This document shows positions 2,371 through 29,799 of a stretch of 33,265 bases of DNA, piece after piece. Made by a program: the position numbers and the translations under genes. The notes beneath the pieces are model-generated. The model saw nothing but the letters and a program-made list of their open reading frames with translations, was not told where the DNA came from and did not search any database. This DNA comes from a virus. Numbering within the stretch: the stretch's first letter is position 1; every line of letters starts with the position of its first letter. The stretch spans positions 1-33,265 of the IMG/VR virus record IMGVR_UViG_3300020129_000381. One strand, 5' to 3'.

Positions 2371-2562
2371 TTACTTTTGTTTCTTTAGGAAAATTCCGGA
2401 CTTTCCGCCTTCTTGATTGGTGGACTCCACTGCGTCGACTACATCTTTAACGCTTGGCAGCTTTCCGGAGCGGCGTAACTCCTCCACCCGATGAGCGGCC
2501 TCTTTCGGGTTGAACATCTCTTGTTTTTCGTTCTTGGACGATTCTTTGGGCTTCATTTCCAT
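2371..2562 (-). CDS. Small charged hypothetical protein overlapping the end of the 1415-aa gene
   Basis: A 63-aa Lys/Glu-rich protein. The core FNPKEAAHRVEELRRSGK is predicted to be helical and is followed by a short tail ending FLKKQK. It overlaps the 3' end of the large upstream gene by 116 nt in another frame. The overlap peptide looks protein-like in this frame, whereas the large protein's own end there is low-complexity (RGRSSGGG). The start is uncertain: ATG at 2562, 2556 or 2517 are all possible and none has a strong ribosome-binding site. The Met at 2517 would shorten the overlap to 71 nt. Function unknown. Confidence 0.6.
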   Translation of the reverse strand: MEMKPKESSKNEKQEMFNPKEAAHRVEELRRSGKLPSVKDVVDAVESTNQEGGKSGIFLKKQK

Positions 2563-5500
2563 AGCTCAGGGGTTCCACTCCCTTGGCTCCGTGGGCTTTG
2601 TACAATTCCTGTTCATAGTACCAAAGAACCGCTTGAGCGTCACGGGGTTCAATCCCTAGTTTGTTTCCGACTCTGGCAATCGCTTCACGGGCATTTCTGA
2701 TCTCGCCAGGCCCCGGAGCATCGTCCACATTTTTTCCCGTCAACCTTCCGGTCCAGCGCTGCCAGGTTCTTGTTGCCCACTTGTCTACGGTTACGAGATC
2801 AGGCACGCCATTAAGATTCAAATAGAAATTGCCACCCTTTGGACCGTAGATCACTGCACCGTACTGCTGATCAGTCGCTTTGCCGGAGACGTTCTTATTG
2901 AATTGTTTCAACTCGGAAGTAGGATGTTTCGATAAAAGCCAATCAACTGCCCCATTTTCGCCGAATTTGTCGATCAGCGCTTGGGTGCTTCTCATGTTCC
3001 CTTCGTGGCCAGCCTTGTACACTCCCCAAGCCTTCCCGTCGGGCTGAGTGATCGGCATCTTCCCAGTTTCCTTGTACAGGTTGTAGGCTTTTTCGGCCAG
3101 CATCATATTGTCTGCAGGATTTTTTCCATAGGAAAGTGCCGACCAGAAAGTCTTGAATAGAGCGGCTTTCTTTGGATCTTTGAGCTCTGGGTGAAGTTCA
3201 GTCATGGCATCGACGGCCTTTTGCGTATCTGCTTCGTACCAGCCAAGACCGCTATTGTCCGTGGCCATCTGATACTTAATCTCAGGGATGGCCATCTTAA
3301 TGGCTCGATCTACTGCTTCTTTATCGGAAACTGCCCCGAATTTTTCTTGTGAATATTTCCCAAGCGCTTGCCCGATATCTGCCACGCTCACCGGGCCGTC
3401 TTCGCCCTTAGCTTTCATCTGCAGTGGACGTTCGCGAAGTTTCGTAAAAGGAATTGTTTCAACCGTAGGCGCTTCTTCCTTGACCATGCGGTACATGCCA
3501 GCGCCCGGCACGCGCTTGATGATCTGATCGAAAGCTTTTTTGCGAGTCAAAGCTTCTTCAGTGACATGCAGATCCTCTGCCGACCCTGGCGCACCTTCAA
3601 TTGTGAATGTGTAAATATTCTTAGGAGGAGTGAATGGCTTTATTTTTTCTTTCCGAGCAGCGCCTGTTGCAGATTCTCCCGCGCCTGCTTTTTCTCCTGC
3701 GGAGACAGCCTCTTCGCCGCCTGCGTCGCCAACTGCAGCACCTGTTCCCTGGTTAGCGCCTCTTTGTTCATAGAGTCCTTTGGCCTTGCGAACGATGTTT
3801 TCTGCGCGGTTCTTGCTGAAATGAAATTCTACAGGAAGACCCTCTTCGCGTATAGAGGCTTCACGTTTCATCAGGTCTACAATGCCGGGATGCGACAATC
3901 TCTCTTTGGCTCGATCTACTGCGGCATCAAACATAGCCTCGTGCTGGTCTTCAGGAATGTCCAAAGCTTGGAACAGTTGTTTGGCTAGTTTCCTATCCCC
4001 ATACAGGCCAGGGTTAGTCTTGCGATCAATGCCGTGCAAGAGTTCATCGGAAGCGGCGCCAGCCGCGAATAAATCGGCAAGTTGCGAACCTTTATTTTTC
4101 ACTACGTCGGTATCAAATCCGCCAGTAACTGGATCGCGAAATTGTGCTCGTGGAAAGAGCACCGAAGCAGTCGCTCCTGTGCCCTTAGATAGTGGATGGC
4201 GATGACTCGAGACACCATTGGAGACAAATCCGTCGATTCCGGCAAGCATTAAGTGCGCCAGTTCATGATGCAGGACCGATTCCGCAGTTACGCCGCGAGA
4301 CGTCCAAACTTTACCAGCAGGAATCGGCATCGGTTTCGTGTAAGGAACACCTTCTTCCTCAGTACTTACTTTTTTTTTAGGAAGCCCTTCTTTGTCGCCG
4401 ATCTTTCCTAGAACGGTTTCTCCGGCTACTCTGGGACGTTGCGGCGGTGTTTCCTCGAATCCTGCCGGGACTTGTTCTTCCAGTTTGGAGATGCGCTGTG
4501 CGATGGCATTGGCCGCTCCGCTGTTGCCCTGCTTGCGCAAATCTTTTTCACGCAAACGCAATTCGTCGATGGTGTCCTGTATAGCCCGGGCCGGAACATT
4601 CTTCGGCAATTCTCCGGCTACTCTTTGTACGATACCCTGGCGGCCGACAGTCCCAAGCTGTGTCTCCGGTGCGCGTTCCGCTGCCTCCGCCGTAGGACGG
4701 ACTTCTTCTCTGGCATATTCGTCTCCCACAATCGGCGGAACATTTGTTTCACGTGGAACAAGTGAAGCGGCGGCTTCCGGCAATTGCGGCGGCGGCCCAT
4801 TCACGCGTCCAAGCCCACCTTGCGGGATCTCACGCAGAAATTGCGGCGTAATCGGAGCAGGAGGCGGCAACTGTCCAGCCGGATTGACCCAGCGGTTATT
4901 CTGGAACCCTGGAGAGCCTCCCAGATTCACCGGACCAGGCATTTGCGTGGCAGGCGCTGGTAATTGCGCAGCAGGTGCGGCTGGGGCTGGAGCACGCAGC
5001 GGCGTGGTCTGTACATCGAAAGTATTTGGCCTCGAGGTGTCCGCAAGATTCCGGAATGCCTTGATGGTGTTCAGATTCGGATTCTTGGAACGCAGATAGT
5101 CGGTCCAGACCTTGGCCCCTTCGCCAAGCAGAAGACCGAAAAGCGCACCGGGAATCGTGTGCGCAAATCCTCCGACCACCGCTCCGGCACCGCCGGCGGC
5201 GAGAGAAGGTCCGCTCTTGGCTACTTGAAAAGCGCTCCAGTTCCCCTTCTTCTGCGCGTCGACGATGGCATCCTCGAAATGATCTCGCACATTGATCAGA
5301 TCTCCGACACGTTTGCGAAATTCCCGAATTGGAACCGGACGACCATCCACATCCACGGCTTGAATTCCCGCTTGTTCCAGCAAGCCGGGATTGGCGGCAT
5401 CTCCATACAACATGTCGCGCATGGCATTGGCTGTGGCACGCTGCGTAACCGCAGTAGCTTCACTTTTGGCGATCAAACGCTGATCTGCTGGTTTCGACCT

Positions 5501-6694
5501 GTAATACGCGCTGGCTTCAGAATCCAGGCGGCGGCGGATACGCTCCATCTCAAACAAACTGATGTCTGGATTGTTGCCGATCAGATTCAGAACTTCCTGC
5601 TTGGCGGCCATCTTTTCCTTGTCGGAAAAATGGCTCAAATTCTGCTTGAACGCACTGTCGATGTGGCGGTCGGCACTGGCCACGACGTCATTCACGGGAA
5701 CTGGAGTGGTCGGCTGCGTCTGTAGTTGAGTGCTGATGGGCGATTCCATCTGGCCGATTCTGTTGGTGATCGCATCGGACGCATCTTCAGGATTCTTGAT
5801 TTTCCCACGGTTATCCTGTGCAATGCGCTGCATGTCGGGCATTACATTGGAAACCGTTTGCGCGTATTCGGTTTCACTCATCCGCGGTGGTTTGACGGTG
5901 AGGATCTGTTTTTGCGCCGCAGCAAGTTTTCCCGCTTCAGTCAACGGAGTGCCGCGGACCACTTTGTCAGCAAGCTTCAAAGGCGCTTTTACTGTTTCGA
6001 GAGGATGAGCAGCCGCTTCTCCTCCAAGAACAGCTCCAGTGGCTTGCCCTGCGGCGCCGCCGACATCTCCGGTCCCGGCTTGTTCGCCCAGCGATGCGGC
6101 CCATGGGCCAACCAGAGGAACCATCGAAGCGATACGGTGGCCAACAGCAGAAGTCGCATGGCTCACAGACCCTGGAGTTCCAGCAGTTTCTTCCTGGCGG
6201 GATTGTTCTTCTAGTTGTCTCGCCTTTTCTGCTTCCTGTTTGTAGGGATCGGTGATGTATTTCTCCCCGAGCCACTTCAGGCGGCCGATAGGATCTATCT
6301 TCCCTTCGGCATTCATGCCAACCAATCCGCCAAGCCCATGCTGTTCTTCGCCTTGGGCGTTTTTCCCTTCGCCAAAAGTCAGATCGTAAAGACCCTGCGC
6401 GGCTGATCCCACCGCTCCTTTTGCGCCTTCATAAATATTCCCCAGCACGTTCCCGGGCGTGAATCCGTAGTTCTCTGGGATTTGAGGAGTTTCTTTTTCG
6501 GTGCGTGTCGGCTTCTGAAATGTTTTTCCGGCGGCGGCACGCAACCGCGGCGTCGACGAAGGCAGGTTTTCTTCAGTAGCTGCCGTTGCTGGCGCAGTTT
6601 TGTGCGCACTTGGAACGTCCTCCCATTCGTCATCATCGGCGGTGGCAGTTCCCCCAGGATTTTTTACATCTTCCCAATCGTCGTTTGTCGCCAT
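2447..6694 (-). CDS. Giant internal/ejection protein with HELAH metallopeptidase motif (1415 aa)
   Basis: The N-terminus carries two copies of an acidic D/E-W-E-D-V motif (near residues 6-10 and 23-27), then Ala/Gly-rich, helical and Pro-rich stretches. HELAH at 810-814, preceded by another His and followed by LMLAG, is a zincin-type HExxH active site; a later DLFAAGAASDELLHG segment may supply a further ligand. The last third (about 1150-1400) resembles a globular domain of large phage 'polyvalent' proteins. Size, composition and position after the tail genes suggest a virion protein injected with DNA, possibly degrading host proteins or opening the envelope; this is inference. The ATG follows the previous stop directly (TAAATG). 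An A9 tract encodes KKK at 773-775, just before the peptidase region, and a parS-like site lies inside the gene. Confidence 0.85.
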   Translation of the reverse strand: MATNDDWEDVKNPGGTATADDDEWEDVPSAHKTAPATAATEENLPSSTPRLRAAAGKTFQKPTRTEKETPQIPENYGFTPGNVLGNIYEGAKGAVGSAAQGLYDLTFGEGKNAQGEEQHGLGGLVGMNAEGKIDPIGRLKWLGEKYITDPYKQEAEKARQLEEQSRQEETAGTPGSVSHATSAVGHRIASMVPLVGPWAASLGEQAGTGDVGGAAGQATGAVLGGEAAAHPLETVKAPLKLADKVVRGTPLTEAGKLAAAQKQILTVKPPRMSETEYAQTVSNVMPDMQRIAQDNRGKIKNPEDASDAITNRIGQMESPISTQLQTQPTTPVPVNDVVASADRHIDSAFKQNLSHFSDKEKMAAKQEVLNLIGNNPDISLFEMERIRRRLDSEASAYYRSKPADQRLIAKSEATAVTQRATANAMRDMLYGDAANPGLLEQAGIQAVDVDGRPVPIREFRKRVGDLINVRDHFEDAIVDAQKKGNWSAFQVAKSGPSLAAGGAGAVVGGFAHTIPGALFGLLLGEGAKVWTDYLRSKNPNLNTIKAFRNLADTSRPNTFDVQTTPLRAPAPAAPAAQLPAPATQMPGPVNLGGSPGFQNNRWVNPAGQLPPPAPITPQFLREIPQGGLGRVNGPPPQLPEAAASLVPRETNVPPIVGDEYAREEVRPTAEAAERAPETQLGTVGRQGIVQRVAGELPKNVPARAIQDTIDELRLREKDLRKQGNSGAANAIAQRISKLEEQVPAGFEETPPQRPRVAGETVLGKIGDKEGLPKKKVSTEEEGVPYTKPMPIPAGKVWTSRGVTAESVLHHELAHLMLAGIDGFVSNGVSSHRHPLSKGTGATASVLFPRAQFRDPVTGGFDTDVVKNKGSQLADLFAAGAASDELLHGIDRKTNPGLYGDRKLAKQLFQALDIPEDQHEAMFDAAVDRAKERLSHPGIVDLMKREASIREEGLPVEFHFSKNRAENIVRKAKGLYEQRGANQGTGAAVGDAGGEEAVSAGEKAGAGESATGAARKEKIKPFTPPKNIYTFTIEGAPGSAEDLHVTEEALTRKKAFDQIIKRVPGAGMYRMVKEEAPTVETIPFTKLRERPLQMKAKGEDGPVSVADIGQALGKYSQEKFGAVSDKEAVDRAIKMAIPEIKYQMATDNSGLGWYEADTQKAVDAMTELHPELKDPKKAALFKTFWSALSYGKNPADNMMLAEKAYNLYKETGKMPITQPDGKAWGVYKAGHEGNMRSTQALIDKFGENGAVDWLLSKHPTSELKQFNKNVSGKATDQQYGAVIYGPKGGNFYLNLNGVPDLVTVDKWATRTWQRWTGRLTGKNVDDAPGPGEIRNAREAIARVGNKLGIEPRDAQAVLWYYEQELYKAHGAKGVEPLSYGNEAQRIVQERKTRDVQPERGRSSGGGVTPLRKAAKR
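4370..4378 (-). other. A9 slippery homopolymer in the 1415-aa gene
   Basis: On the coding strand nine consecutive A residues encode Lys 773-775. Loss or gain of one A leads to a stop within a few codons in either alternative frame (TAA right after the run in one, TGA a few codons later in the other). Transcriptional slippage or frameshifting here would give a protein of about 775 residues lacking the HELAH domain. Whether this happens is not shown. Confidence 0.5.
4745..4760. promoter_or_regulatory. parS-like centromere site (ParB-binding consensus)
   Basis: The minus strand reads TGTTCCACGTGAAACA. The classical parS is TGTTTCACGTGAAACA, and C/T and A/G variants at the two half-site positions are known functional forms in many bacteria, so this is a full match to the degenerate consensus. 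It lies inside codons for VPRETN of the 1415-aa protein. No parA or parB is encoded in this window. Binding by host ParB is inferred from sequence only. Confidence 0.7.
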
Positions 6695-8380: not shown

Positions 8381-9058
8381 TTAACCGAATCCCGCCGCCT
8401 TTGCCGCTCCAAGTCCCATGCCTCCGAGAGTGTTGATGGTAGCCAAAGTATTTTGCAGCCAGCCGCTCTTGCCGCCTTCCAGTTGTGTCTGCAAATCTCT
8501 ATTTTGCATTTCCTCTTGGCCTAACTGCTGTCCGGTGTCAATGCCATAAAGCTTCATCAGATTCGATCTGGCTTCTTGCCGTTTTTGTTCCGCCAGTGCC
8601 GCATCGCCCATGTTGATCTGCAATCCGGTCGAGGCCGCCGCACGGCCTTTCGCTCGCGCTGCTTCAGCAAGAGCAGGAGCAAATCCGGCGGCGTTGCGCG
8701 TACGCATGGAATTCAAGCGCGCTTCTCCGCTGGCGCCTGAATTCACTCCACCCAAAGCTTCGTTCCCCGAAGTAATCATGGAAGCTCTCTGGAGGGGAGT
8801 ATATCCAGTGGGGTTTTGCGCATCCTGCACTAAGCCGGGAATGATGGCATTTTCTTCCGTAGTTCCACGGGAACCGTATTGATCCGCTTGCGCTCCCGCT
8901 TGTTTGCCGGACGTCGAAGCAGCTTTCTGCACGCCTCGATCTGCGCGAATCAATATCTCATGGTCGGGAATTTCGTATTGGCCGTCGTGCGAGGCGAGAG
9001 TGAATCGCTGGAGTTCGTCGCTCCAAAGAAATCTCGGGTTGATGGTGATTTTTGCCAT
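8381..9058 (-). CDS. Ala/Gly-rich virion-associated protein (225 aa)
   Basis: Residues 1-40 form a probable beta segment (AKITINPRFLWSDELQRF). The rest is rich in Ala, Gly, Gln and Ser with helical patches (ALAEAARAKGRAAAS) and ends in a glycine-rich hydrophobic tail, NTLGGMGLGAAKAAGFG. The tail resembles small-residue membrane-active regions of podovirus ejection proteins, but no known family is evident. It is the first of three consecutive genes of this composition. The ATG at 9058 is the only clear start, 44 nt after the GNAT-like gene; the ribosome-binding site is weak. Confidence 0.7.
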   Translation of the reverse strand: MAKITINPRFLWSDELQRFTLASHDGQYEIPDHEILIRADRGVQKAASTSGKQAGAQADQYGSRGTTEENAIIPGLVQDAQNPTGYTPLQRASMITSGNEALGGVNSGASGEARLNSMRTRNAAGFAPALAEAARAKGRAAASTGLQINMGDAALAEQKRQEARSNLMKLYGIDTGQQLGQEEMQNRDLQTQLEGGKSGWLQNTLATINTLGGMGLGAAKAAGFG

Positions 9059-9102
9059 ACCGATGGCTCACGCAATCTCCCCGATTTCAGTTGCAAACTA
9101 TA

Positions 9103-9519
9103 TCACAAGTTCAAAGTCCAGCAGACATAAGGTGATTTTTTAAATCCCATGCCTTCCATGCGCTTGGCGAAGCTCTTGTCGATCTCCTCCGGCAGCCAGG
9201 CCGACAATTGCTCTAACCCCAACTTCCACGCCTCCAGCGCGAACCATCCCTTGAACTCCAAAAGCCATTGCCAGCGCTCGTCCGGAGTGCCCACTTCGTG
9301 ATTTAGCAGCAGAAAAAGTTCTCCCTGCATTTTACAGAAAGCCATCATGGCCGGGACGCCTTGGTGCTCGTACACCGCGTTGATGATGAATAACGGATTG
9401 GGCACAGTGCGGCCATCGACTTCGATGTTCAATTGCGGCAAGCATCCTTCGGGAAGTTCATTGGCGCGGTGAATTTCTTTGGCTGTCTCTAAATCTTTTT
9501 CAGTGAACGGTCTGATCAT
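9103..9519 (-). CDS. GNAT-fold acetyltransferase-like protein
   Basis: The 138-aa protein begins MIRPFTEKDLETAKEIHRA, the typical first strand and helix of a GNAT domain (IRPATxxDxxxIxxL), and ends MEGMGFKKSPYVCWTL, like the closing 'GF' strand pair of that fold. The acetyl-CoA pyrophosphate loop (R/Q-x-x-G-x-G/A) is not visible, so it may be non-catalytic or divergent. GNAT-like proteins of this sort occur among virion genes of podoviruses. Its ATG overlaps the stop of the Fn3-like gene by four bases. Confidence 0.65.
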   Translation of the reverse strand: MIRPFTEKDLETAKEIHRANELPEGCLPQLNIEVDGRTVPNPLFIINAVYEHQGVPAMMAFCKMQGELFLLLNHEVGTPDERWQWLLEFKGWFALEAWKLGLEQLSAWLPEEIDKSFAKRMEGMGFKKSPYVCWTLNL

Positions 9520-9995
9520 AGAGCTTTGGGCGTGGTGATTCTGACGGTGGCCGGGCGGTGCAGATTATTTCCGAATCCTTGCCCTGCGGATTGCCCATTT
9601 GCTGGAGCTGTTCCGCTTCCGGTGGACGGGAGCAGCGTCATCTGAAATGTTCCGCCTGGATCTACCGCTGTAGCCCGTTCGCCGCCGAAACGGATCTTGG
9701 AACTTGGTTTTCCACCCGGCAATTGTGAGTAAGAGCGGAAATAAAACTTCTGCGGATTGCCATCGTCATCGAGCGCCGGAAGATTTAGAGGATGCATGGT
9801 CCTGCTGGTTCCCATATGCACGACATGCGGCTGTTTGAACGATGGGTCCGTGTCGTATTCCACAAAATAGTGAATACCGCGGCGCAACTGGCTTTGATCG
9901 TTGATTACCGCATGCACGAGGCCTCCGCTGGCCTTCACGGTCAAACTTTGCGGAGCATCTGGCGGCGGCAGCGTCGCCGAAGGGTCCGCGCCCAC
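9516..9995 (-). CDS. Fibronectin III-like virion protein, main part (downstream of an in-frame TGA)
   Basis: The body of the protein (PQSLTVKASGGLVHAVI, then HYFVEYDTDPSF, then KFYFRSYSQLPGGKPSS) follows the strand pattern of a fibronectin type III domain, ending in a flexible Gly/Ser/Thr/Pro-rich tail. Fn3 domains are common in phage tail and capsid decoration proteins. The only start is a GTG at 9995 with no nearby Shine-Dalgarno. The same reading frame continues upstream, after a single TGA at 10002-10004, into a 36-codon piece that does have a ribosome-binding site. The likely full product is about 198 residues starting at 10112, interrupted by a nonsense codon or made by readthrough. Confidence 0.7.
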   Translation of the reverse strand: MGADPSATLPPPDAPQSLTVKASGGLVHAVINDQSQLRRGIHYFVEYDTDPSFKQPHVVHMGTSRTMHPLNLPALDDDGNPQKFYFRSYSQLPGGKPSSKIRFGGERATAVDPGGTFQMTLLPSTGSGTAPANGQSAGQGFGNNLHRPATVRITTPKAL

Positions 9996-10001
9996 GTTAT
10001 T

Positions 10002-10112
10002 TCAAAGATTGGTGACTCCGGTGGCCAGACGGCCGAGCGCCAGCGCCAGATAGCGCCCAAACTCCGGAAGTTTCTTTATATAGTCGAGTTCTCGATCGAT
10101 ATTGACAGCCAT
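10002..10112 (-). CDS. N-terminal fragment of the Fn3-like protein, ending at an in-frame TGA
   Basis: Thirty-six codons begin at an ATG with AGGTGA just upstream, three bases after the stop of the 1579-aa gene. The peptide, MAVNIDRELDYIKKLPEFG followed by RYLALALGRL, reads as an amphipathic helix and looks like a genuine protein start. The TGA at 10002-10004 is in frame with the downstream Fn3 gene and separated from its GTG by only two codons. Either it is a separate small protein or the two parts form one protein through UGA readthrough or a recent mutation. Confidence 0.55.
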   Translation of the reverse strand: MAVNIDRELDYIKKLPEFGRYLALALGRLATGVTNL

Positions 10113-10115
10113 GCA

Positions 10116-13100
10116 TCACCTGTTGCGGCCGCTGTACGGAGCAAAGCCCGAAGTGCTCATCAGCATGGTCATTCCCGACAAAGTATAAGCCGAACCGACG
10201 CATTGCGCGATGAATTCGATGAACAAACGGTTGGCTTCCTCGTCGAGAGGCACTTCCGCATCGCCAAAAGTTGAAACTGGGAACGTCAGATCCGGCAAAA
10301 GTCTGCGCGTGCCAGCTCCGTCAACGTAATTGTTGTGCGCGACGATGCCGAAGCTACCCTGGCCGTCGATAATCAGCGTCATGGTGTCGTAGCCGCAGCG
10401 CAGCACGCCAACATTCTGCGCTTGAGCGTCGGAACGCGGCAAAAACGATGAAGTGATGTAGCGCTCGGAGAATGGCGAGCCGTCATCCTCCAAAAGTCCT
10501 TCGATTAACTGGAAAATCTTGCCGTTTCCGTCTGAATTGCCCACAAACACCGGAGCAGTGTTGTCAGAACGGGTCAGAAACGCCGCGGAAGGCGCTTTAA
10601 TGGTCCACAAGGCCCATTTGCGGGTGATTTCCGAGGCCAAAAGCTTGCCTGAATAGCTGCGATGCACTCCCACCGAGGAAGACAGGGCGCTGGCCGTGTT
10701 TAATTGCTTGTAATTCAGCTCCAGAATCACATTGGGCGTGGTCGGAGCCGGATCGTCCGGAATCACTCCCGCCGGCAACCATGTTCCGCGCTGCACATTG
10801 CCGTAAGCGTCGAGCCAGTAAGTTTTTAGAGGCACGCCAAAGAGAATTCTGCGGTTGATGATGTCGTTCAGCGTCCAGATGGTGTGCTCGAAGTCCCAGT
10901 TGATCTTGTTCCAGATGGATTGAATCTCTTCAGAAAGTTTTACTGGCTCTCCTCCGTCGTAAATGTAGGCTCCCGGCTGTCCCGCAAGGATCGCCCAATC
11001 CTCTCCGGAGTTTGGCTGGTCGATAGCCGTGGTGATTCCGTAGACGCTGGTGGTTCCAATCGATTGCGACACGGTGCGCACGCCCCATCCGGCATCGGCA
11101 ACCACAGGTTCCGTGGTTCCATTGTCGGCCGTCGAGAACAGCGAATTCACTTTGCCCATGTAGAACGTATCGAACTCCACGAAACAGCTCTTGATCGGCT
11201 GCGAATTCTGCGCGGGCTTGATCACTCCGGTGAGGCGGTCGAAAGCTTCAAAATTCTGCGCGTAAGAGAAGATCACCTGCGTATGCAGATTCGGCGCTTC
11301 GGTCGGGAAGGCCTCTTCTCGATCGAGCGTCACCACCGCGCCATCCGGAATATTCTGCGCCCAGATGCGCAGCAGCAGATCCTGGGGAACCGGAGCCAGC
11401 ATGGTGGTGAGCAATGTTCCACTGAAGAGTTGCATGCGTGTAGTCAAGCTCGATAGCGGAAGAGAGAACGTTCCAAGCGCCGTATGCAGCAGCGGACTGT
11501 AGAGATCGATGATCAGATTGCCAGAAGCTACCAATGCAGAGACTGCGGCCGTCACGCGCACGCTGTAAGTCGTCGACGCGTTGATGATATCCACGAGGAA
11601 TTCATCTTTGTAGGCGGGCTGCGAGATCATTCCGTAAACCGCTTGCGGCGACCCGGTCGAATTAGTGATCTGATACGCATTACCAAAGATTGGCGACGTC
11701 ACCACACTTCCGCCTGCGCCGTTTGCCGGATCTACCGTCCAGCCCAGCGGGTAAGTCTGCCCTCCGGCGCCTCCTCCGACTCCACCGTCAAAAGAATGAT
11801 TGCGGAAATTGAATACCTTGTTCTGTTCTCCGATGGCCGCAAGACGCTGTGCTCCGGAGTACGGAACTAGGGCTGTGCATGAACCCAACTCGTAGCACGC
11901 GAACAGATTGTTTCCCTGAATATCGATTTCGTCGGCCGCCAGCAGCACTTCATCTGAGAACGACAGCACGACGTTGGTGGTGGTGTTATCCATCACCCAG
12001 GTGGAATCGTTGGTGATTTTCTGTCCGGTAATCGGATCGGTGACGAAGACCGGATCCGGAATGTTGTAAAACTGTCCGCCATTGGCTCCGGTGAAGTGGA
12101 TTACCCGTGCGATGACATTCTCCGGACCGGGAGAAAGATTGGACACCGCGATTCCTGTAGATCCGACGATGATATCAGCCGTGGCGATAGGCGAAGGCTG
12201 AGTCAAGAAACCATTGCGCGTCAGGAACGAGTAGCAAAGCTTGCGAATGCCGAAGGCGAAGATTCCCGCAACCACCACGGTGCCTATGCCTGCGATATTT
12301 CCTACGGGCTGGCCGGGCTCGAACTTGAAAATGGTTCCAGCCACGATTCCCGTGCCACTCTCCGCAGCCGATGGAATGTCAGGACTCACCAGAGAGATCG
12401 AGAAGACTCCCGGGCTGGTCGAGGTGATGGTGGCATTGGAGACGTTGAAGATTCCGCCGCCATTGAGCGTTTCACCCACAGTCACTTTCGATCCGATGGC
12501 CGGCGTTGCCCCAGAGATCACGATATATCCGTAGGTCGCAATATTTCCTGCGAGCACGGTCGAAGTGATCTGCAACTGCGCGGCGTTCGTCGAGTCGGTC
12601 ACCAACCAACTGCCATCGTATCCGGCCGCAGGAGATCCTCCAGTTCCCGCAATTTCCATGGTGCTGCCGATCTGCATGTTGGGAATAGGCAGAGTCGAAG
12701 TAAGCGTGGCGGTGGTGACCTGATAATTTCCGTCCGGAGCGTTAGCCTCGATGTGGTCGGCCTGATTCACGAACTGGCTCACAGGCACCTGCACCGTGAA
12801 GTACCAGCGACCGAAGGTAGCTCCCGGGGGGATGCCCTCGCCAACGCTAGTTACAGTGTAGTTAGCATCGATTAACTGGCCATTGAACTGGTTATTCGGA
12901 TTAGCCGTGTCCGCGCCGGAAATAGTTACTCCCACGCCAACCTTAAGGTCCGGATCATTGGTGGCCGAAGGCCCAGGAGGCGAAGAGCGCCCCCAGTAAA
13001 CTGTCAACACGTTTCCTGCGGCGGTGCTGCCAGGTCCAGCGGACCACAGGAACCCTGAAATATGCCCGGGATTTTCCGGATCGCTTTTCACCGTTGGCTG

Positions 13101-14855
13101 GGTGATGCTGGCAATTGGAATGGTGCCGCCAACATTCGATCCTGTTCCGGTCGGAGGAGCGCCTGGCCCGACCTGCGAGAGTCGATCAAAATTCGGCGGA
13201 GAATAAACTCGCGGGATATCCGTTCCATTCACCAGATCCGAAATAGCGATGTACTCGCGGTTATCGAGCGTTGCGCTCTGCGCGAAACTGTCCGGAAATA
13301 TATTCGAGAACAGCGGCGCCAGAAGATTTGGAGCGTTGATGGCGTCTTCCTTGTACATGACGCCATTGCTTCCCAAAACAAGAGAAGTAAGTTCTCCTCC
13401 CGTTTCAGAAAAGGATTTCATGTAGTTGACGTCGGGAGGCGGATCGGGAACCGAGAAAGCCACCAGAACTTCAACGCTGACAGTGAACGTGACCAGTTCA
13501 CCGCCCGGTGCCTGCGCCACGATATTCACCGTGAAGTTAGGATCATTGAGCAGCGCCGCGGTCAATTGATCCGTGGTAAATCCCCACAGGTCCGTCGGCG
13601 AGCCAAGTGTGACGGTTCCAGAGACCAGCGGCATCTGCACTGTTTTGATGTCCGGAGAAAGAGTTCCGTCCGGTAATTGCAGTTGCACCAGAAGTTCAGC
13701 ATCCGGAGGCTGGGCGCTCTGGCTTCCGGTGAGTTCGACCTCGACGCCAAGAATCGGCAATCCGGTAGGAGCATCGATGATGGTATATGTGGATCCGCAG
13801 CCTGAAGCGATTTGCCCTTGCGGAACATCGACAGGAATATTCAAAGCAAAATTGGTGGCCTGCAAAGTCTGAGAAAGCGGACTACCGCCTCCACCGCAGT
13901 CGTGAGTAACCGGAAACGACATATTCTTCATCGCCACTTGCGTCGTACCGCCACCAGCTACTCCGTGATAATTACCTCCGTAAGTCCCTGCGGGACTGTG
14001 AAAGTCGGAAGTGTCTGGACTAACGTAGTGAGCGGTGATTAAACTTCCGCTTACTCCAGGGGTCGTTCCTAGGTTTGTATAGTCTGGGTCAGTTTGGGCA
14101 TCCCGTGGACTCAATAGAAAACTCATCACAAATTCCGTAGCAAGAGTGGTAATTGGAGGTCCGCTGTACGGAGTCGGCGGCGGTCCAGGTTCTGTAAACA
14201 CACCTTCATTCAAATGCGATACGGTGGGAAGTATTCCGCGAATCACTGTACCGATCACAGTCTGTTCTACTTCTATGACCGGATGATTATAGGTGACCGA
14301 GAATGAATAGGCTCCGCCTGCGGCAACCGCTGCTGTCAACGGGCCGCTGAAAACCTGAAGAATTTCTCCGACGGCGACCAGCCTAGTGCCTATTTGAGAA
14401 AAGATCGTTCCCAAACTATCGGTAATCCCAATGCAAGCGGTGTCTGCATGAAATAAAGTCCCAGTCTGAATATAAAAAAACACCACATCATTTACCTTCA
14501 TCTCGTTTACGAGAGGTGAAATGACGTCCGATGCGACATTTCCTATGAAGCTCGGACTGCTGGGACCAGAAATGCTATACGCGATCAGTGGACAGAGACC
14601 TGCTTGGTTCAGCGTGACGCTGCCGCCGCTCCATGACACTCCGGCTGGTCCCACCGATTGCGTGAATCCTGCGTTCGATTCAAAAGCATCTTCAGGAAAA
14701 GTGAATGCACTGCGCTTCACCGGGCGAGGTCCAACCGCGCCGACCACATAGTCGACGTTGATGGCCCGGGGAGAAGCGCCCTGCGGCAACCCTTCCGGCG
14801 AGGCTTCAGTGAACAGCCCGGCGAAGAGCTCCTGTGCTGTCTTGATCTGCGGCAT
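10116..14855 (-). CDS. Giant beta-rich tail protein, nozzle/receptor-like (1579 aa)
   Basis: The N-terminus QELFAGLFTEASPEGLPQGA, followed by SPRAINVDYVVGAVGPRP, looks like a virion docking segment. The bulk consists of Ser/Thr/Gly/Val-rich beta-strands with recurring Ig-like or beta-helix-like modules, for example GSKVTVGETLNGGGIFNVSN and NYTVTSVGEG. The C-terminus contains a propeller-like region near WALWTIKAPSAAF and ends FAPYSGRNR. Following the adaptor and fibre genes, it may be the tail nozzle/hub or a receptor-binding component of a short tail; this rests on position and composition. The Fn3-like gene starts three bases after its stop. Confidence 0.7.
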   Translation of the reverse strand: MPQIKTAQELFAGLFTEASPEGLPQGASPRAINVDYVVGAVGPRPVKRSAFTFPEDAFESNAGFTQSVGPAGVSWSGGSVTLNQAGLCPLIAYSISGPSSPSFIGNVASDVISPLVNEMKVNDVVFFYIQTGTLFHADTACIGITDSLGTIFSQIGTRLVAVGEILQVFSGPLTAAVAAGGAYSFSVTYNHPVIEVEQTVIGTVIRGILPTVSHLNEGVFTEPGPPPTPYSGPPITTLATEFVMSFLLSPRDAQTDPDYTNLGTTPGVSGSLITAHYVSPDTSDFHSPAGTYGGNYHGVAGGGTTQVAMKNMSFPVTHDCGGGGSPLSQTLQATNFALNIPVDVPQGQIASGCGSTYTIIDAPTGLPILGVEVELTGSQSAQPPDAELLVQLQLPDGTLSPDIKTVQMPLVSGTVTLGSPTDLWGFTTDQLTAALLNDPNFTVNIVAQAPGGELVTFTVSVEVLVAFSVPDPPPDVNYMKSFSETGGELTSLVLGSNGVMYKEDAINAPNLLAPLFSNIFPDSFAQSATLDNREYIAISDLVNGTDIPRVYSPPNFDRLSQVGPGAPPTGTGSNVGGTIPIASITQPTVKSDPENPGHISGFLWSAGPGSTAAGNVLTVYWGRSSPPGPSATNDPDLKVGVGVTISGADTANPNNQFNGQLIDANYTVTSVGEGIPPGATFGRWYFTVQVPVSQFVNQADHIEANAPDGNYQVTTATLTSTLPIPNMQIGSTMEIAGTGGSPAAGYDGSWLVTDSTNAAQLQITSTVLAGNIATYGYIVISGATPAIGSKVTVGETLNGGGIFNVSNATITSTSPGVFSISLVSPDIPSAAESGTGIVAGTIFKFEPGQPVGNIAGIGTVVVAGIFAFGIRKLCYSFLTRNGFLTQPSPIATADIIVGSTGIAVSNLSPGPENVIARVIHFTGANGGQFYNIPDPVFVTDPITGQKITNDSTWVMDNTTTNVVLSFSDEVLLAADEIDIQGNNLFACYELGSCTALVPYSGAQRLAAIGEQNKVFNFRNHSFDGGVGGGAGGQTYPLGWTVDPANGAGGSVVTSPIFGNAYQITNSTGSPQAVYGMISQPAYKDEFLVDIINASTTYSVRVTAAVSALVASGNLIIDLYSPLLHTALGTFSLPLSSLTTRMQLFSGTLLTTMLAPVPQDLLLRIWAQNIPDGAVVTLDREEAFPTEAPNLHTQVIFSYAQNFEAFDRLTGVIKPAQNSQPIKSCFVEFDTFYMGKVNSLFSTADNGTTEPVVADAGWGVRTVSQSIGTTSVYGITTAIDQPNSGEDWAILAGQPGAYIYDGGEPVKLSEEIQSIWNKINWDFEHTIWTLNDIINRRILFGVPLKTYWLDAYGNVQRGTWLPAGVIPDDPAPTTPNVILELNYKQLNTASALSSSVGVHRSYSGKLLASEITRKWALWTIKAPSAAFLTRSDNTAPVFVGNSDGNGKIFQLIEGLLEDDGSPFSERYITSSFLPRSDAQAQNVGVLRCGYDTMTLIIDGQGSFGIVAHNNYVDGAGTRRLLPDLTFPVSTFGDAEVPLDEEANRLFIEFIAQCVGSAYTLSGMTMLMSTSGFAPYSGRNR

Positions 14856-14867
14856 AGGCTCCCGCGA

Positions 14868-15248
14868 TTAGATAGAAGCGTTGCGCTTGACGACGGCCAC
14901 GAAGTTGATCACTTCGTTCTGCAGCGTGACGTTGTCGATGGTGCTGGGCAACTGCTGCAGCGGCGCGGCTGTCGTGAGAGAGCCCGTGGGCGGAACCTGC
15001 AAGCCCATGGCTTTCCCGGTCAGAGGCTGGCGCTGCCAGATGTATCCACTGCCCACATCCGAAGTCAGCAGCACGCGTGCGATGACGCCTGTCGCTTCCG
15101 GAAGAGCCAGAATGACGGAGTCGAGTGGAATGCCGCCCACCGGATAATTTCCGGTTCCGACGATAGTCATGCGTCCGGAAAGAGTGGTCGTCTTCTGATC
15201 GTTGCTGGCCATGTAATTGGCGGCGGTAATTGAAAATGAAAGCGGCAT
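14868..15248 (-). CDS. Small beta-rich virion protein (126 aa)
   Basis: The start is the internal ATG at 15248, chosen because AGGAG lies nine bases upstream; an upstream extension would be Arg-rich and unlike the rest. The product (MPLSFSITAANYMASNDQKT, later DSVILALPEATGVIARVLL) consists of alternating hydrophobic strands and ends in NFVAVVKRNASI. I do not recognise it. Position between the fibre and the giant tail protein suggests a tail or decoration component. It has a private leader containing a perfect inverted repeat. Confidence 0.75.
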   Translation of the reverse strand: MPLSFSITAANYMASNDQKTTTLSGRMTIVGTGNYPVGGIPLDSVILALPEATGVIARVLLTSDVGSGYIWQRQPLTGKAMGLQVPPTGSLTTAAPLQQLPSTIDNVTLQNEVINFVAVVKRNASI

Positions 15249-15267
15249 TCTTTTTCTCCTAGTCTGC

Positions 15268-15283
15268 CGATGCCTTGGCATCG
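15268..15283. repeat. Perfect inverted repeat in the leader of the 126-aa gene
   Basis: CGATGCC-AA-GGCATCG on the minus strand gives a 7-bp stem with a 2-base spacer, about ten bases before the AGGAG ribosome-binding site. There is no T-run after it, so it is not an intrinsic terminator. It could be an mRNA hairpin tuning translation or a protein-binding palindrome. Confidence 0.5.
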
Positions 15284-15339
15284 CGCCAGCTGTGTTGATG
15301 GAATCCTGCGCTGGTCAGGCCGCGTGCCCGTGCCGTACC

Positions 15340-16356
15340 CTAAACCAAAGTCGTATTACCGGGCGTAACCGCACGCCACAAATTTCCCGATGAAAGCTTG
15401 AACCCCTGAATGGTCACGTTGTTGGCGCCTGTATCGACCGAAGCGCCGCCTCGTGTGTTGGCTGGCCAAGCGAAGGCGTGGCCTCCAGCGCCATCCTGCG
15501 CCACGGCAATCCAGATGACTTGTCCTGCGGTGCCATTGGTGATCGTTCCGAAATTAGCGTCTCCGGTAAGCGTAAGAGAAAAAGCATTCGACAACGAAGC
15601 ATCGAAGACCGGAGAGCCGGCGTTGAAAGCGACCGAAACATCCAGAGGGAAATCCGGAGGGAAGATTCTCCGCGCCGTGACTGGACCTGCGCCGCCGGAA
15701 ACCGGACCCGCCAGAAACAGATTGGCGTTCTGATTGGTGAAGTTGATGGTCAGCGTAATCGTTCCACTGGTGGTGATCGGGCTTCCGCTGACGGATCCCG
15801 AAAGCAGCGAACTAAGCGACTGCGAGATGGCCACGCTGGTGACTGAGCCGCTGCCGACACCTGCTGCGGTAAGAATATCGGTAAGCAGTTTGAATGTCGG
15901 CGCGGCAGCAGGCCCCGAAAGCGGTCCAGCCCACACAGTAAGAATATTCTGCAGCGCTTTACTTAAGCCAAGAGTTCCGTTGGTGATGATCGGCGAGCCG
16001 CTGATTGTAAACTCAGGCGGCACAGTCATAGCCACACTAGTAACCGTGCCCGATCCAGCGCCGGAGGAAAGAATCAGAACATCGGGAATGATGATTGTCT
16101 CGATGCGCTGCAGCGTGTCGTAAATCACCAGCGTGTACAGCCCTGGATTTGCGTAGAAATCGAAATTGCCGTTGCCGTCGCTGATGACTGGATTTGCGCC
16201 GGGAGTCGCTCCACTGCTGTCGGTGAACAATGTAGCCAGCGGCGAAGGCGGAATGATCGAAGTGTTTGCTGGCTGCGTGCAGACGTAGATCAGCACGCCA
16301 TCGATAGCATTGCCTACCGCGGACTGGATCTGATTCTGATAACGGGTAGCGCTCAC
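15340..16356 (-). CDS. Tail fibre protein with GSG-x-VTSVA repeats (338 aa)
   Basis: Residues about 1-95 (RYQNQIQSAVGNAIDGVLIY, then GNFDFYANPGLYTLVIYD) form a beta-sandwich-like attachment domain. Two tandem modules follow, each GSG-T/S-VTSVA, SGSPI-T-GT, N-L/I, GP-L/V-SG-A-P, near residues 97-160 and 165-230; such modules are common in phage fibres. The C-terminal region (DANFGTITNGTAGQVIWIAV, then SGNLWRAVTPGNTTLV) is Gly/Asn-rich and beta-stranded, as expected for a receptor-facing tip. It is coupled to the adaptor gene by an ATGA overlap. Fibre identity is well supported by repeats and context; receptor is unknown. Confidence 0.8.
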   Translation of the reverse strand: MSATRYQNQIQSAVGNAIDGVLIYVCTQPANTSIIPPSPLATLFTDSSGATPGANPVISDGNGNFDFYANPGLYTLVIYDTLQRIETIIIPDVLILSSGAGSGTVTSVAMTVPPEFTISGSPIITNGTLGLSKALQNILTVWAGPLSGPAAAPTFKLLTDILTAAGVGSGSVTSVAISQSLSSLLSGSVSGSPITTSGTITLTINFTNQNANLFLAGPVSGGAGPVTARRIFPPDFPLDVSVAFNAGSPVFDASLSNAFSLTLTGDANFGTITNGTAGQVIWIAVAQDGAGGHAFAWPANTRGGASVDTGANNVTIQGFKLSSGNLWRAVTPGNTTLV

Positions 16357-18187: not shown

Positions 18188-18974
18188 ATCTGTATCTTGA
18201 AACTAACGGCCGATCACCCTGTGTCAGCCCCGTCTGGAACACCGGGCGAAGTCCGTTGCGTGCCAACTGATCCCAATGCTTTTGGATCGCGTGCATCTTC
18301 TGATCAAGCAGCGAAGTGCGGCAACCTTGCCTTGAAAAACTCACTGGCCCGTACCACGCCGGCAGAGAATCCATCATGCGTTCCGTCAACTCCGCATTCT
18401 CGCGTGCGGCTTCGGCTTCCGCTTCGGCGTACTGCGCCGCTTCTTTTTCTTCCTGCGTCAGTTCCTGCCACGCCAGAATCAGCGGGATGATCACGTCTAT
18501 CAGGTAGTGCGAGAGCGGCATGTGCTCGATCTTGAGCTTGTTGTCGACGAACTCCTTGTGCATCAGCGGCACTACAATTTCGTAGCGCCCCTTGTACGGA
18601 TATTCCGCGGTAACGTAGAAACCTTCTGGACTGTCGTAGCCTCTGCCGTCCGCACGCTCTGCCGAATCTTCTCCTGCGGTCTTCAGCGGAATCCATGTGT
18701 TGGCGTAGTACGTTTCCGGAGACCCGTAATGCGACGGCGGCTTCCAGCACATGATCATCCAGCAGGGATTGGCATCGCCCTGATAGCAGTCGCGGTAGTA
18801 ATGCACGCGGCGCCCGTATTTGTCTTTATCCTCGCGGCCTAAGCGAATGAACTGCGACTGGTTCCACACAATCTTGAAGTGCGGCTCGCCGAATTGATTC
18901 CTTCCGAATTTGCGCGTGAGCCGCTCTTGGAACTGCGGAGGGCATTGGCGCGTCTCTCGTCCGGAGATGTACAT
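18186..18974 (-). CDS. Uncharacterised structural-region protein (262 aa)
   Basis: The first 90 residues are basic and aromatic (FGRNQFGEPHFKIVWNQSQF, DKYGRRVHYYRDCYQGD), the middle is beta-rich (YKGRYEIVVPLMHKEF), and residues about 180-215 form a strongly acidic coiled coil (ELTQEEKEAAQYAEAEAEAA). The C-terminal 50 residues are again basic. No known family is recognised. It lies four bases after the co-chaperonin stop, implying co-translation and perhaps a role in capsid assembly. Confidence 0.7.
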   Translation of the reverse strand: MYISGRETRQCPPQFQERLTRKFGRNQFGEPHFKIVWNQSQFIRLGREDKDKYGRRVHYYRDCYQGDANPCWMIMCWKPPSHYGSPETYYANTWIPLKTAGEDSAERADGRGYDSPEGFYVTAEYPYKGRYEIVVPLMHKEFVDNKLKIEHMPLSHYLIDVIIPLILAWQELTQEEKEAAQYAEAEAEAARENAELTERMMDSLPAWYGPVSFSRQGCRTSLLDQKMHAIQKHWDQLARNGLRPVFQTGLTQGDRPLVSRYR

Positions 18975-18977
18975 CGG

Positions 18978-19367
18978 CTATTCGTCGTCCTCGAGCACGG
19001 TATAGATTTCTTCCTCGCGCACCAGAAACAAAGTCTTGTCTCCAGTCGCGTCTTCCATCTCGTCCAGTTGAATGGCGAAGTTGGTGTACAACACCACATC
19101 GCCGCGCTCGAGATCGGTAACCTTCGGAGAAAATGAAACCACTTCTCCGATACTTGATCGAGCTTGGCCCTCGGTGATCAGCAGTCCAGCCGCGCTCAAC
19201 TTGTCGCGTGGATCGATCTTCCGGACCACGACCCACTCGTGCCGCGGACGAAGTCTCTTTCTTTTTTGAGTGCTGATGGGAACTGCGGATTCGGCGCGTC
19301 TCTTCACCGTTTCCCGCGCACGTTCAAGCATTGCATCTATGACTGGAACCGTCGCCGTACTTTTCAT
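18978..19367 (-). CDS. Phage GroES-like (Cpn10) co-chaperonin
   Basis: Residues about 39-126 follow bacterial GroES closely: LRPRHEWVVVRK (first strand), KLSAAGLLITEGQARSSIGE (mobile loop and the following GEV strand; compare [20 protein letters not shown] of E. coli GroES), LERGDVVLY, and the C-terminal FLVREEEIYTVLED. The hydrophobic GroEL-contacting tripeptide is LLI at 62-64. There is an extra basic N-terminal stretch of about 38 residues that ordinary GroES (about 97 aa) lacks. Known phage co-chaperonins (T4 gp31 and relatives) redirect host GroEL to fold the capsid protein. Its location directly after the major capsid gene fits that job. AGGGG lies six bases before the ATG. Confidence 0.88.
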   Translation of the reverse strand: MKSTATVPVIDAMLERARETVKRRAESAVPISTQKRKRLRPRHEWVVVRKIDPRDKLSAAGLLITEGQARSSIGEVVSFSPKVTDLERGDVVLYTNFAIQLDEMEDATGDKTLFLVREEEIYTVLEDDE

Positions 19368-19391
19368 TCTGTACCCCTATTTACATGAATT

Positions 19392-19423
19392 GAGGGAAGC
19401 CAGGATTGCTCCCAGCCTCCCTC
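19392..19423 (-). promoter_or_regulatory. 14-bp intercistronic hairpin with GCAA tetraloop
   Basis: Just after the capsid stop, the minus strand reads GAGGGAGGCTGGGA, then GCAA, then TCCTGGCTTCCCTC. The arms pair over 14 positions with three G-U wobbles and no mismatch, capped by a GNRA tetraloop. No U-tract follows, so it is not a standard terminator. It sits between the capsid and co-chaperonin genes and could protect the upstream mRNA 3' end or adjust the ratio of the two products. Confidence 0.65.
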
Positions 19424-19430
19424 GTGGAAA

Positions 19431-20765
19431 TTACGTGGTGACGGAAGGCACGGCCAAGTTGGTGATGTAGGCTCCGGCCTTCATGTTCGCGTTGAAGAGA
19501 TTCAAGAACGCGTTGTAGTAGAAAATGGAGCTGGTCTTGTAAGCTCCGGTGGTCGCATCCGGAATCGGCATGGTGGTTACGCCGTCGCCGAAATCGTACA
19601 GGGACGGCTCGACAGTTTCCACAATCCCCCATGTGCCAGGGTCAATCGCGTCCATGCGCCCTTGTCTCGCGGTCACCGTAACATGCAGTGGCCGTCCGTT
19701 GAAAGTCTTGGGCATGTTCTTCTTGCTCATGTCCAAGGCGCTATCGCCGGGCGGAACGTAGTTCTGCTGCAGCACGTTGGTGTAGAGCTGAGTAACCGCC
19801 AGTTCCTGATCGGGTCCGCAGATCCACTCGAACTTTTCTACTTCGTCGGCGTCATCGCCCAAGCCGCGGCGCATCAGAATCCCGACTTTGTAGCCGTCAG
19901 TGGTGTTGAGCGCAGCGCCACCCTTGTTGATATTCGGAGTGGACAATTGCCCGGGATAAGTTGCGCGGGAAATGTTCAGCACGGTTCCGGTATTGGACTG
20001 CACCTGATAGGTGTAGATGCCGGCAACGCCGTTGCCCAGTGCGCCCGAAGAACCCTGAATCATGATGAAGTCTCCGGCTGCGGTGCCGTTGGGCAGAGCA
20101 GTCGAGAAGTACACCGTGTCCAGTGCGCCGTCGACGTACGACACTGTCGCGTTAGCTACGCCGCCAGTGCGCGGTGCGCCGCCTTCCGCCGCGAAGAACT
20201 GCACGACTTGCTGTTCCTGCAGTTGGTTCGCTTGGCCGTTCAAGCCCACGATCGATGACGGGTTGGCGCCGCCGAGGGTGTTGTTGTTGACGGTGGCGGT
20301 CGCCGGAATCTGCAGCAGCGAGCCAGCCGAATCAGAAAGGAACTGCGCATCGACGCCGCGCATGAAAGAGTTCAGTGAGTTCTTCAACTCTTCCGCACGC
20401 AGTGAAATCAATCCGCGCTTCGGGCCGTTGGTGGCGATGCGGGAGAGGTACGTGATCTCGCAGCCAGCGAACAAGCCGATGGGAACGATATCCCCACCTT
20501 CCCAGCGGGAGCCAGTGCCGCGCTGCAATCCGTCGCCGTCTCCAGTTGCCTGGAAGATCGCCGCGCCGGACTGAATGCGCCACGGAATCCTGAACGAAGG
20601 CCGCGTAGTTCCACCCGCAGCCGTGGTGACGGCGGTCGGATAAGTCTTCGCGCCTTTCTTCATCAGGTTGTAAATCGTTTTGAAAGTTGGAACTAAATCA
20701 GGGATGCCTTTTGCAAAATTCTCGAGTTCGACTGCTTGGACGGCAGCTTCCTGTAGCGGAGCCAT
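19431..20765 (-). CDS. Major capsid protein
   Basis: A 444-aa protein lying after portal and scaffold. The N-terminal arm (VELENFAKGIPDLVPTF, then IYNLMKKG) leads to a central region rich in Gly/Ala/Asn (FRIPWRIQSGAAIF, then FMRGVDAQFLSDSAGSLLQI) and an A-domain-like beta region, ending YNAFLNLFNANMKAGAYITN. This distribution and size are usual for HK97-fold capsid proteins. The family assignment rests mainly on gene order, length and composition, since no motif is diagnostic by eye. AGAGG is about 11 bases before the ATG. A segment of its N-terminal arm recurs in the Tat-signal-like protein at 27355-27717. Confidence 0.8.
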   Translation of the reverse strand: MAPLQEAAVQAVELENFAKGIPDLVPTFKTIYNLMKKGAKTYPTAVTTAAGGTTRPSFRIPWRIQSGAAIFQATGDGDGLQRGTGSRWEGGDIVPIGLFAGCEITYLSRIATNGPKRGLISLRAEELKNSLNSFMRGVDAQFLSDSAGSLLQIPATATVNNNTLGGANPSSIVGLNGQANQLQEQQVVQFFAAEGGAPRTGGVANATVSYVDGALDTVYFSTALPNGTAAGDFIMIQGSSGALGNGVAGIYTYQVQSNTGTVLNISRATYPGQLSTPNINKGGAALNTTDGYKVGILMRRGLGDDADEVEKFEWICGPDQELAVTQLYTNVLQQNYVPPGDSALDMSKKNMPKTFNGRPLHVTVTARQGRMDAIDPGTWGIVETVEPSLYDFGDGVTTMPIPDATTGAYKTSSIFYYNAFLNLFNANMKAGAYITNLAVPSVTT

Positions 20766-29572: not shown

Positions 29573-29577
29573 TCCGT

Positions 29578-29799
29578 TCAATCTTCTTTCAGGAGTTCCA
29601 CCAGCCGGAATCTTTCCGTCCGGTCGTTGGTCATGGCGATGAGCAGCATATCAACAGTGTGCTGCCGGCGAACTTTTCTGCCCAGCCCGTTCAGGTCATT
29701 GCGCAACTGGCGGATCTCGGCGCGTGAACCTGAAATGATTTTGCCAGCAGTATATACAACACCGACAACGAATACGGAGACAGTAATCCATTCGGTCAC
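29578..29799 (-). CDS. Single-TM membrane protein with coiled coil (73 aa)
   Basis: The start is the GTG at 29799, overlapping the stop of the upstream gene (GTGA). Residues 4-22 (WITVSVFVVGVVYTAGK) form one membrane helix. A basic/acidic region of heptad character follows (SRAEIRQLRNDLNGLGRKVR) and the end is RTERFRLVELLKED. Topologically it resembles an inner-membrane spanin or a one-TM holin, but its place just before terL is unusual for either. Function unknown. Confidence 0.7.
   Translation of the reverse strand: MTEWITVSVFVVGVVYTAGKIISGSRAEIRQLRNDLNGLGRKVRRQHTVDMLLIAMTNDRTERFRLVELLKED

Follow-up and report, generated by a model that had tools for sequence, protein, structure and literature searches.

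In the parABS systems of phage-plasmids, such as P1 and mycobacterial extrachromosomal prophages, phage DNA carries a parS for ParB. These phages have genes for ParA and ParB next to this parS, which is their own and often divergent. The chromosomal parS, the centromere of the Spo0J/ParB system, is reported to have mainly the form TGTTNCACGTGAAACA (PMC7022226). ParB-CTP clamps are described to load at parS, to slide and spread from it and to stimulate ParA (PMC12704722), and parB mutants of several hosts are described as impaired in SMC loading (PMC7022226). For the lytic phage phi29, Spo0J was reported to carry the phage DNA into the spore (Meijer et al., 2005, as cited in PMC9437464). In searches of the open-licence PMC literature, no title or abstract opening was found that presents host-type parS sites as common to phages without ParB. 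Such sites are of a known kind, that of phi29 and Spo0J, which apparently has been little surveyed.

The window, i.e. the whole stretch of viral DNA analysed here (33,265 bases, IMG/VR record IMGVR_UViG_3300020129_000381), contains one sequence of this type within a large gene. The initial annotation had described a canonical parS on the minus strand, and this was borne out: positions 4745-4760 have 0 mismatches to TGTTYCACGTGRAACA, the minus-strand 16-mer fits the literature form exactly, and a second parS match is not present in the 33,265 bases at up to 3 mismatches. The site is read in frame by the codons GTT CCA CGT GAA ACA, giving V-P-R-E-T at residues 646-650 of the 1415-aa product. It is the center of an 18-bp palindrome that consists of parS plus one extra pair, and no other 18-mer of the window pairs as well. 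The features are:

2447 to 6694, minus strand: late gene of 1415 aa, whose large product is probably a virion protein or an injected one of the polyvalent type; HELAH is found at residues 810-814, and residues 1279-1359 match DUF7178
4655 to 5014, minus strand: linker rich in Pro/Ala/Gly/Ser/Thr/Glu (about residues 561-680, by composition in 40-residue windows), which holds the parS
4744 to 4761, no strand assigned: near-perfect 18-bp palindrome TTGTTTCACGTGGAACAA around the parS site, 8 of 9 pairs
4745 to 4760, minus strand: parS-type site TGTTCCACGTGAAACA (TGTTTCACGTGGAACA on the plus strand), exact match and the sole one in the window
27842 to 29581, minus strand, the same strand as the parS gene: terminase large subunit (PHROG 2, E 8.5e-25)

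The site fits the same consensus as the chromosomal parS but, unlike it, lies in a virion-type gene of a phage, with no parAB found beside it. It differs from the parABS systems of phage-plasmids, as neither ParA nor ParB was detected in the window or in the overlapping record described below. The closest likeness is to phi29, PZA and B103, which carry exactly the same 16-mer inside late structural genes, in the frame V-S-R-G-T or V-S-R-E-T; in gene 10 it lies close to the C-terminus of the protein. In phi29, however, there is more than one site, the host is a known spore former and Spo0J is reported to be involved (PMC9437464), whereas the window phage is larger and has one site.

The five parS codons probably cost the 1415-aa protein little, as a Pro/Ala-rich stretch is likely to tolerate such a peptide. 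Near the C-terminus, the DUF7178 match scores 27.2 bits against a cut-off of 27, and this region shows 29-35% identity to very large proteins in three phage records sharing this C-terminal domain (MW202722, MW202640 and Limnohabitans phage DC33). In these records no parS was found at up to 2 mismatches, in MW202722 and MW202640 over the whole sequence and in DC33 over 30.7 of 39.0 kb. The HELAH zincin-type motif (window 4253-4267), read by eye, suggests a metallopeptidase domain, as in polyvalent proteins, which are injected with phage DNA and carry such domains (PMC5512222). That the product is injected is a reasonable conjecture. When IMG/VR was queried with the complete protein, and also with a stretch of 500 residues surrounding the site, the outcome was a single record, IMGVR_UViG_3300020122_000371 (G001), and no relative spanning the parS site was found there, among genome contigs or in INPHARED at the DNA and protein level. 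Four distant relatives, recognised via the terminase and an 862-aa protein on contigs of 10-15 kb, gave no match to the 1415-aa gene.

G001 (48,451 bases) represents the same phage: 1,816 of 4,001 query bases of the window align to it at 100%, and two further proteins are also 100% identical. It begins at window base 5185, which leaves a gap of about 425 bases to parS, so that the site is known from one assembly only, and it extends past the right end of the window. If both are collinear, the phage has at least about 53 kb. G001 itself has no parS-type site at up to 2 mismatches. Its extension codes for a terminase small subunit, RecT and a HerA/FtsK-like protein. The latter, an ATPase of 567 aa (14143-15846 of G001, locus L131), has a further match to a PHROG that bears the name terminase large subunit, although the same phage has a separate large terminase in the window. 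At 18634-19881 of the same record, beyond the window, a protein of 415 aa is encoded that gives HYDIN/ASH-type Ig-like and fn3 matches, names that are unusual for a phage protein.

Among the 16 window proteins scanned, named matches were restricted to terminase and a glycosyltransferase, most proteins had no match, and no bacterial origin-region genes were found around the site. In the window and G001, which together may be an incomplete genome, ParB_N (PF02195) gave no match, while 11 of 14 control genomes were positive. The same was found for the ParA-type AAA_31 (PF13614; 14 of 14 controls positive), tyrosine integrase (PF00589; 14 of 14, here too with a genome that may be partial) and serine recombinase/resolvase (PF00239; 11 of 14). 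The suggestion of captured partition machinery is not supported by the first two results, nor is a prophage of the integrating form by the last two. Since no ParB was found, any ParB acting on the site would be that of the host.

In IMG/VR, the degenerate parS pattern is present in at least 120 stretches, and at least 120 were also obtained with the 16-mer of the window alone. A permuted-arm control that kept the CACGTG core (four 16-mers) gave 10 stretches, about 5 per equivalent pair, and a second control, a different near-palindrome, gave 0. The 210 parS loci examined contain 134 copies of the window 16-mer, 129 of them with distinct flanks. Copies outside ORFs of at least 60 aa make up 31% (42 of 134) versus 12% of random positions, which shows that the 16-mer prefers gaps between genes, and 28% (38 of 134) lie inside ORFs of at least 300 aa versus 46% of random positions. 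Still, the copies in long ORFs are far above the control, for which 3 of 10 sites were in such ORFs, corresponding to about 1.5 for two 16-mers. According to the control, chance accounts for about 4% of all copies (upper value about 7%) and about 4-12% of those in long ORFs. By theory, with the collection size guessed at about 35 Gb, perhaps at most about 16 copies, or at most about 13-20%, would be due to chance.

A similar picture was obtained for 50,697 named phage records, in which a match required 16 or more of the 18 bases. The 18-mer of the window matched 164 records, 13 of them at all 18 bases; in a sample of 60 records spread over the 164, the 16-mer is complete in 54 and incomplete in 6. 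The TTTC/GAAA form matched 315 records, and the 60 listed all match at 18 of 18 bases. The CC form, a third parS form, matched 108, where the listed Mycobacterium records are without the last base of the 16-mer. No record matched a permuted 18-mer at the same threshold. These counts are not independent, as many of the matching phages are closely related to one another. The survey as a whole suggests a strong over-representation of canonical parS in phage DNA. The commonest hosts in the searches with the TTTC/GAAA form and the window 18-mer were Listeria, Microbacterium, Arthrobacter, Gordonia, Bacillus and Pseudomonas, in addition to microviruses. Klebsiella phages account for 10 of the 108 CC-form records, and the three listed all contain the whole 16-mer. 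This is at odds with a simple rule by which parS follows host ParB, since Enterobacteriaceae are reported to lack chromosomal par genes (PMC7022226).

The phi29 family was used as a yardstick for conservation. Exact copies of the window 16-mer occur four times in phi29, and the parS counts are 4 in phi29, 3 in PZA, 2 each in B103 and BSP11, 3 in Chedec 11 and 1 in Athos. The other 10 of the 16 genomes examined have no site at up to 2 mismatches, including three from Bacillus-group hosts. Four of the carriers (phi29, PZA, B103 and Chedec 11) were already known from the motif searches; among the other 12 genomes only BSP11 and Athos carry parS. The ten genomes without parS comprise two enterobacterial phages and eight others, which also lack the 14-base core and whose hosts presumably have ParB. 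Matching of parS to host ParB across the family thus supports the rule only weakly.

At the codon level the family is more informative. In gene 10, encoding the connector, the five B. subtilis phages share all six codons at the site in each of the ten pairwise comparisons, against a background of 0.42-0.76 for the same codon at identical residues. Among 306 windows of six codons, complete identity across the five phages is seen in just 2, and both are at parS. In gene 15, the 16 bases vary at one degenerate position, where a G to A change replaces Gly by Glu and keeps parS. The gene 10 sites did not bring these phages up in the first motif searches, although the phages are still not a blind sample. 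The codon identity in gene 10 and the change in gene 15 argue for selection on DNA rather than on protein, and point to selection at the DNA level for parS inside late genes of the phi29 group.

Whether the copy in the window is of the same nature has to be weighed against chance, i.e. that the 16 bases are accidental in the V-P-R-E-T linker and have no role, although a canonical host ParB might bind them. The expectation for exact parS matches is 2.2e-5 to 3.1e-5 per 33,265 bases, depending on the model, in agreement with the earlier claim that a chance match in 33 kb is very unlikely, and any parS is present in only 19 of 20,000 synonymous shuffles of the 1415-aa gene. Given the peptide, the probability of the DNA of the site is 7e-5; this argument was dropped, as every in-frame parS gives a similar value and nothing independent is added. 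These odds are to be read with the note that, if many windows and motifs are screened, one rare match somewhere is expected. The permuted-arm control also recovers some stretches, and a Pro/Ala-rich linker would probably tolerate any such peptide. The flanks of the window 16-mer are T...A, which is atypical: among the 127 distinct IMG/VR copies with full flanks this combination occurs once, versus 44 with A...T, and among the named phages it corresponds to the 13 of 164 records that match the 18-mer completely. In addition, there is a single parS in about 53 kb of window plus G001, versus 2-4 in the five B. subtilis phages of the phi29 group. The rare flanks, the lone site and the lack of a relative found to span it count against this copy. 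On the other hand, the odds per window and the shares of copies attributed to chance above speak against an accident. Taken together, an accidental origin is somewhat unlikely, and the sequence comparisons make it quite probable that this parS copy is under selection.

If it is selected, the site could still be used for something other than segregation, such as loading of host SMC to compact the phage DNA, titration of ParB that would disturb segregation in the host, or silencing or roadblock of late transcription by sliding ParB. The spreading of ParB clamps from parS (PMC12704722), the SMC-loading defect of parB mutants in several hosts (PMC7022226) and the occurrence of parS in late genes of unrelated phages would agree with such roles, but a lone site per genome would be expected to titrate little ParB, and we consider them clearly unlikely. 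The effect on ejection and the pure decoy for ParB that the initial annotation had also considered were not supported in this analysis. An origin of the site from a chromosome fragment or from a phage-encoded parABS would be suggested by the identity of canonical parS with the chromosomal centromere sequence (PMC7022226) and by the parABS systems that some phages carry. Here, however, the site is within a gene of a phage contig with the terminase on the same strand, and ParB_N, AAA_31, integrase and resolvase gave no match in the window or G001. This explanation is very improbable and largely refuted.

Loading of host ParB on the phage DNA, as proposed initially, is the best reading, because the 16-mer is over-represented in phages and is kept at the codon level in a late gene of the phi29 group. 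We assign a probability of roughly 0.55 to a genuine host-ParB loading site that is kept by a phage without detected ParB and whose benefit would be segregation. Hitch-hiking on host segregation would be the likeliest use of the site, with phi29 and Spo0J as the precedent. Since ParB-CTP clamps load at parS and slide, a parS-bearing phage genome in a ParB-positive host should acquire ParB. After entry or replication of the phage DNA, host ParB with CTP would recognise parS, close as a clamp and slide onto the adjacent phage DNA. The ParB-coated phage genome would then be treated like a chromosome origin, with ParA-driven movement and SMC loading. In cases of delayed lysis, this would help it to pass to both daughters or into a dormant cell. 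For the window phage we infer a host with a canonical ParB, its binding to the site and segregation as the benefit, so that the phage genome may stay with the host nucleoid during delayed lysis. Reportedly, Lin and Grossman in 1998 stabilised a plasmid by a cloned chromosomal parS together with the Soj/Spo0J of the host. If this reading is real, the window adds a larger phage to the case of phi29 and Spo0J. The over-representation of parS in phages makes a neglected question testable, namely whether lytic phages rely on the centromere system of the host for persistence when its cells are slow or dividing.

The wider pattern across phages is of more interest than the single copy in the window. 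Manatee Spring podovirus ctKR88 (MW202524) carries the same 16-mer, as a single copy in 26,491 of 42,585 bases, in a glycosyltransferase-type (yqgM-like) gene. Its proteins gave no match to 21 window proteins at E 1e-3, and it therefore looks like an independent case and not a relative. Of the 38 long site-bearing ORFs in IMG/VR contigs, 36 were scanned; 22 match PHROGs, and for 15 the best match is to head/packaging, connector or tail families. The genes holding parS include:

L010, L064, L162, L190, L214 and L216: terminase large subunit (PHROG match)
L150: terminase small subunit (PHROG match)
L147 and L100: portal or adaptor (PHROG match, weak for L100)
L044: phi29-like connector (PHROG match)
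L160 and L176: head genes (PHROG match)
L140 and L157: tail genes (PHROG match, weak for L157)
L133: lytic structural protein (PHROG match)

ParB_N matches were found in 3 of the 38 contigs, one of them above the cut-off, where many of the contigs are fragments. The reading frame of the window, V-[P/S]-R-[E/G]-T, is used in 28 of the 38 ORFs; by a rough estimate this is about what amino-acid frequencies predict, and it proves little alone. Two homologous pairs carry parS in both members: L190/L214, and L034/L204 with 54% amino acid identity, the same codon at 0.39 of identical residues and parS kept at 16 of 16 bases. Both were discounted as proof of conservation, as the pairs came to notice because both members carry the site and are biased. 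It is an evenly balanced proposition that unrelated phages without ParB have widely and convergently come to keep a host-type parS in such flexible V-[P/S]-R-[E/G]-T stretches of late genes, with host ParB clamps serving segregation or SMC loading in many bacteria beyond sporulating Bacillus, and with the window as one independent case.

Some further occurrences of parS were observed in the viral records. Canonical parS is found in many records of Microviridae, gokushoviruses and Spiroplasma phage 4, which are ssDNA phages of about 4-7 kb. In the Pseudomonas phages phiPsa300/347/397, PN09, UAVern and vB_PpS_SYP, as well as in Vibrio phage phi 3 and Roseobacter phage DSS3P8, parS is located in an annotated terminal repeat or less than 1 kb from the start of the record, in a region that may be the first to enter the cell. 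Two contigs have five exact TGTTTCACGTGAAACA copies each in about 1 kb (L032, 2657-3444; L085, 10535-11462), which are possible parS arrays. The highest copy number among the loci listed is found in a contig of 116,662 bases (L146, IMGVR_UViG_3300037518_000322), where eleven exact TGTTTCACGTGGAACA copies are located within about 5 kb (8906-13878), resembling a centromere-type array in a viral contig.
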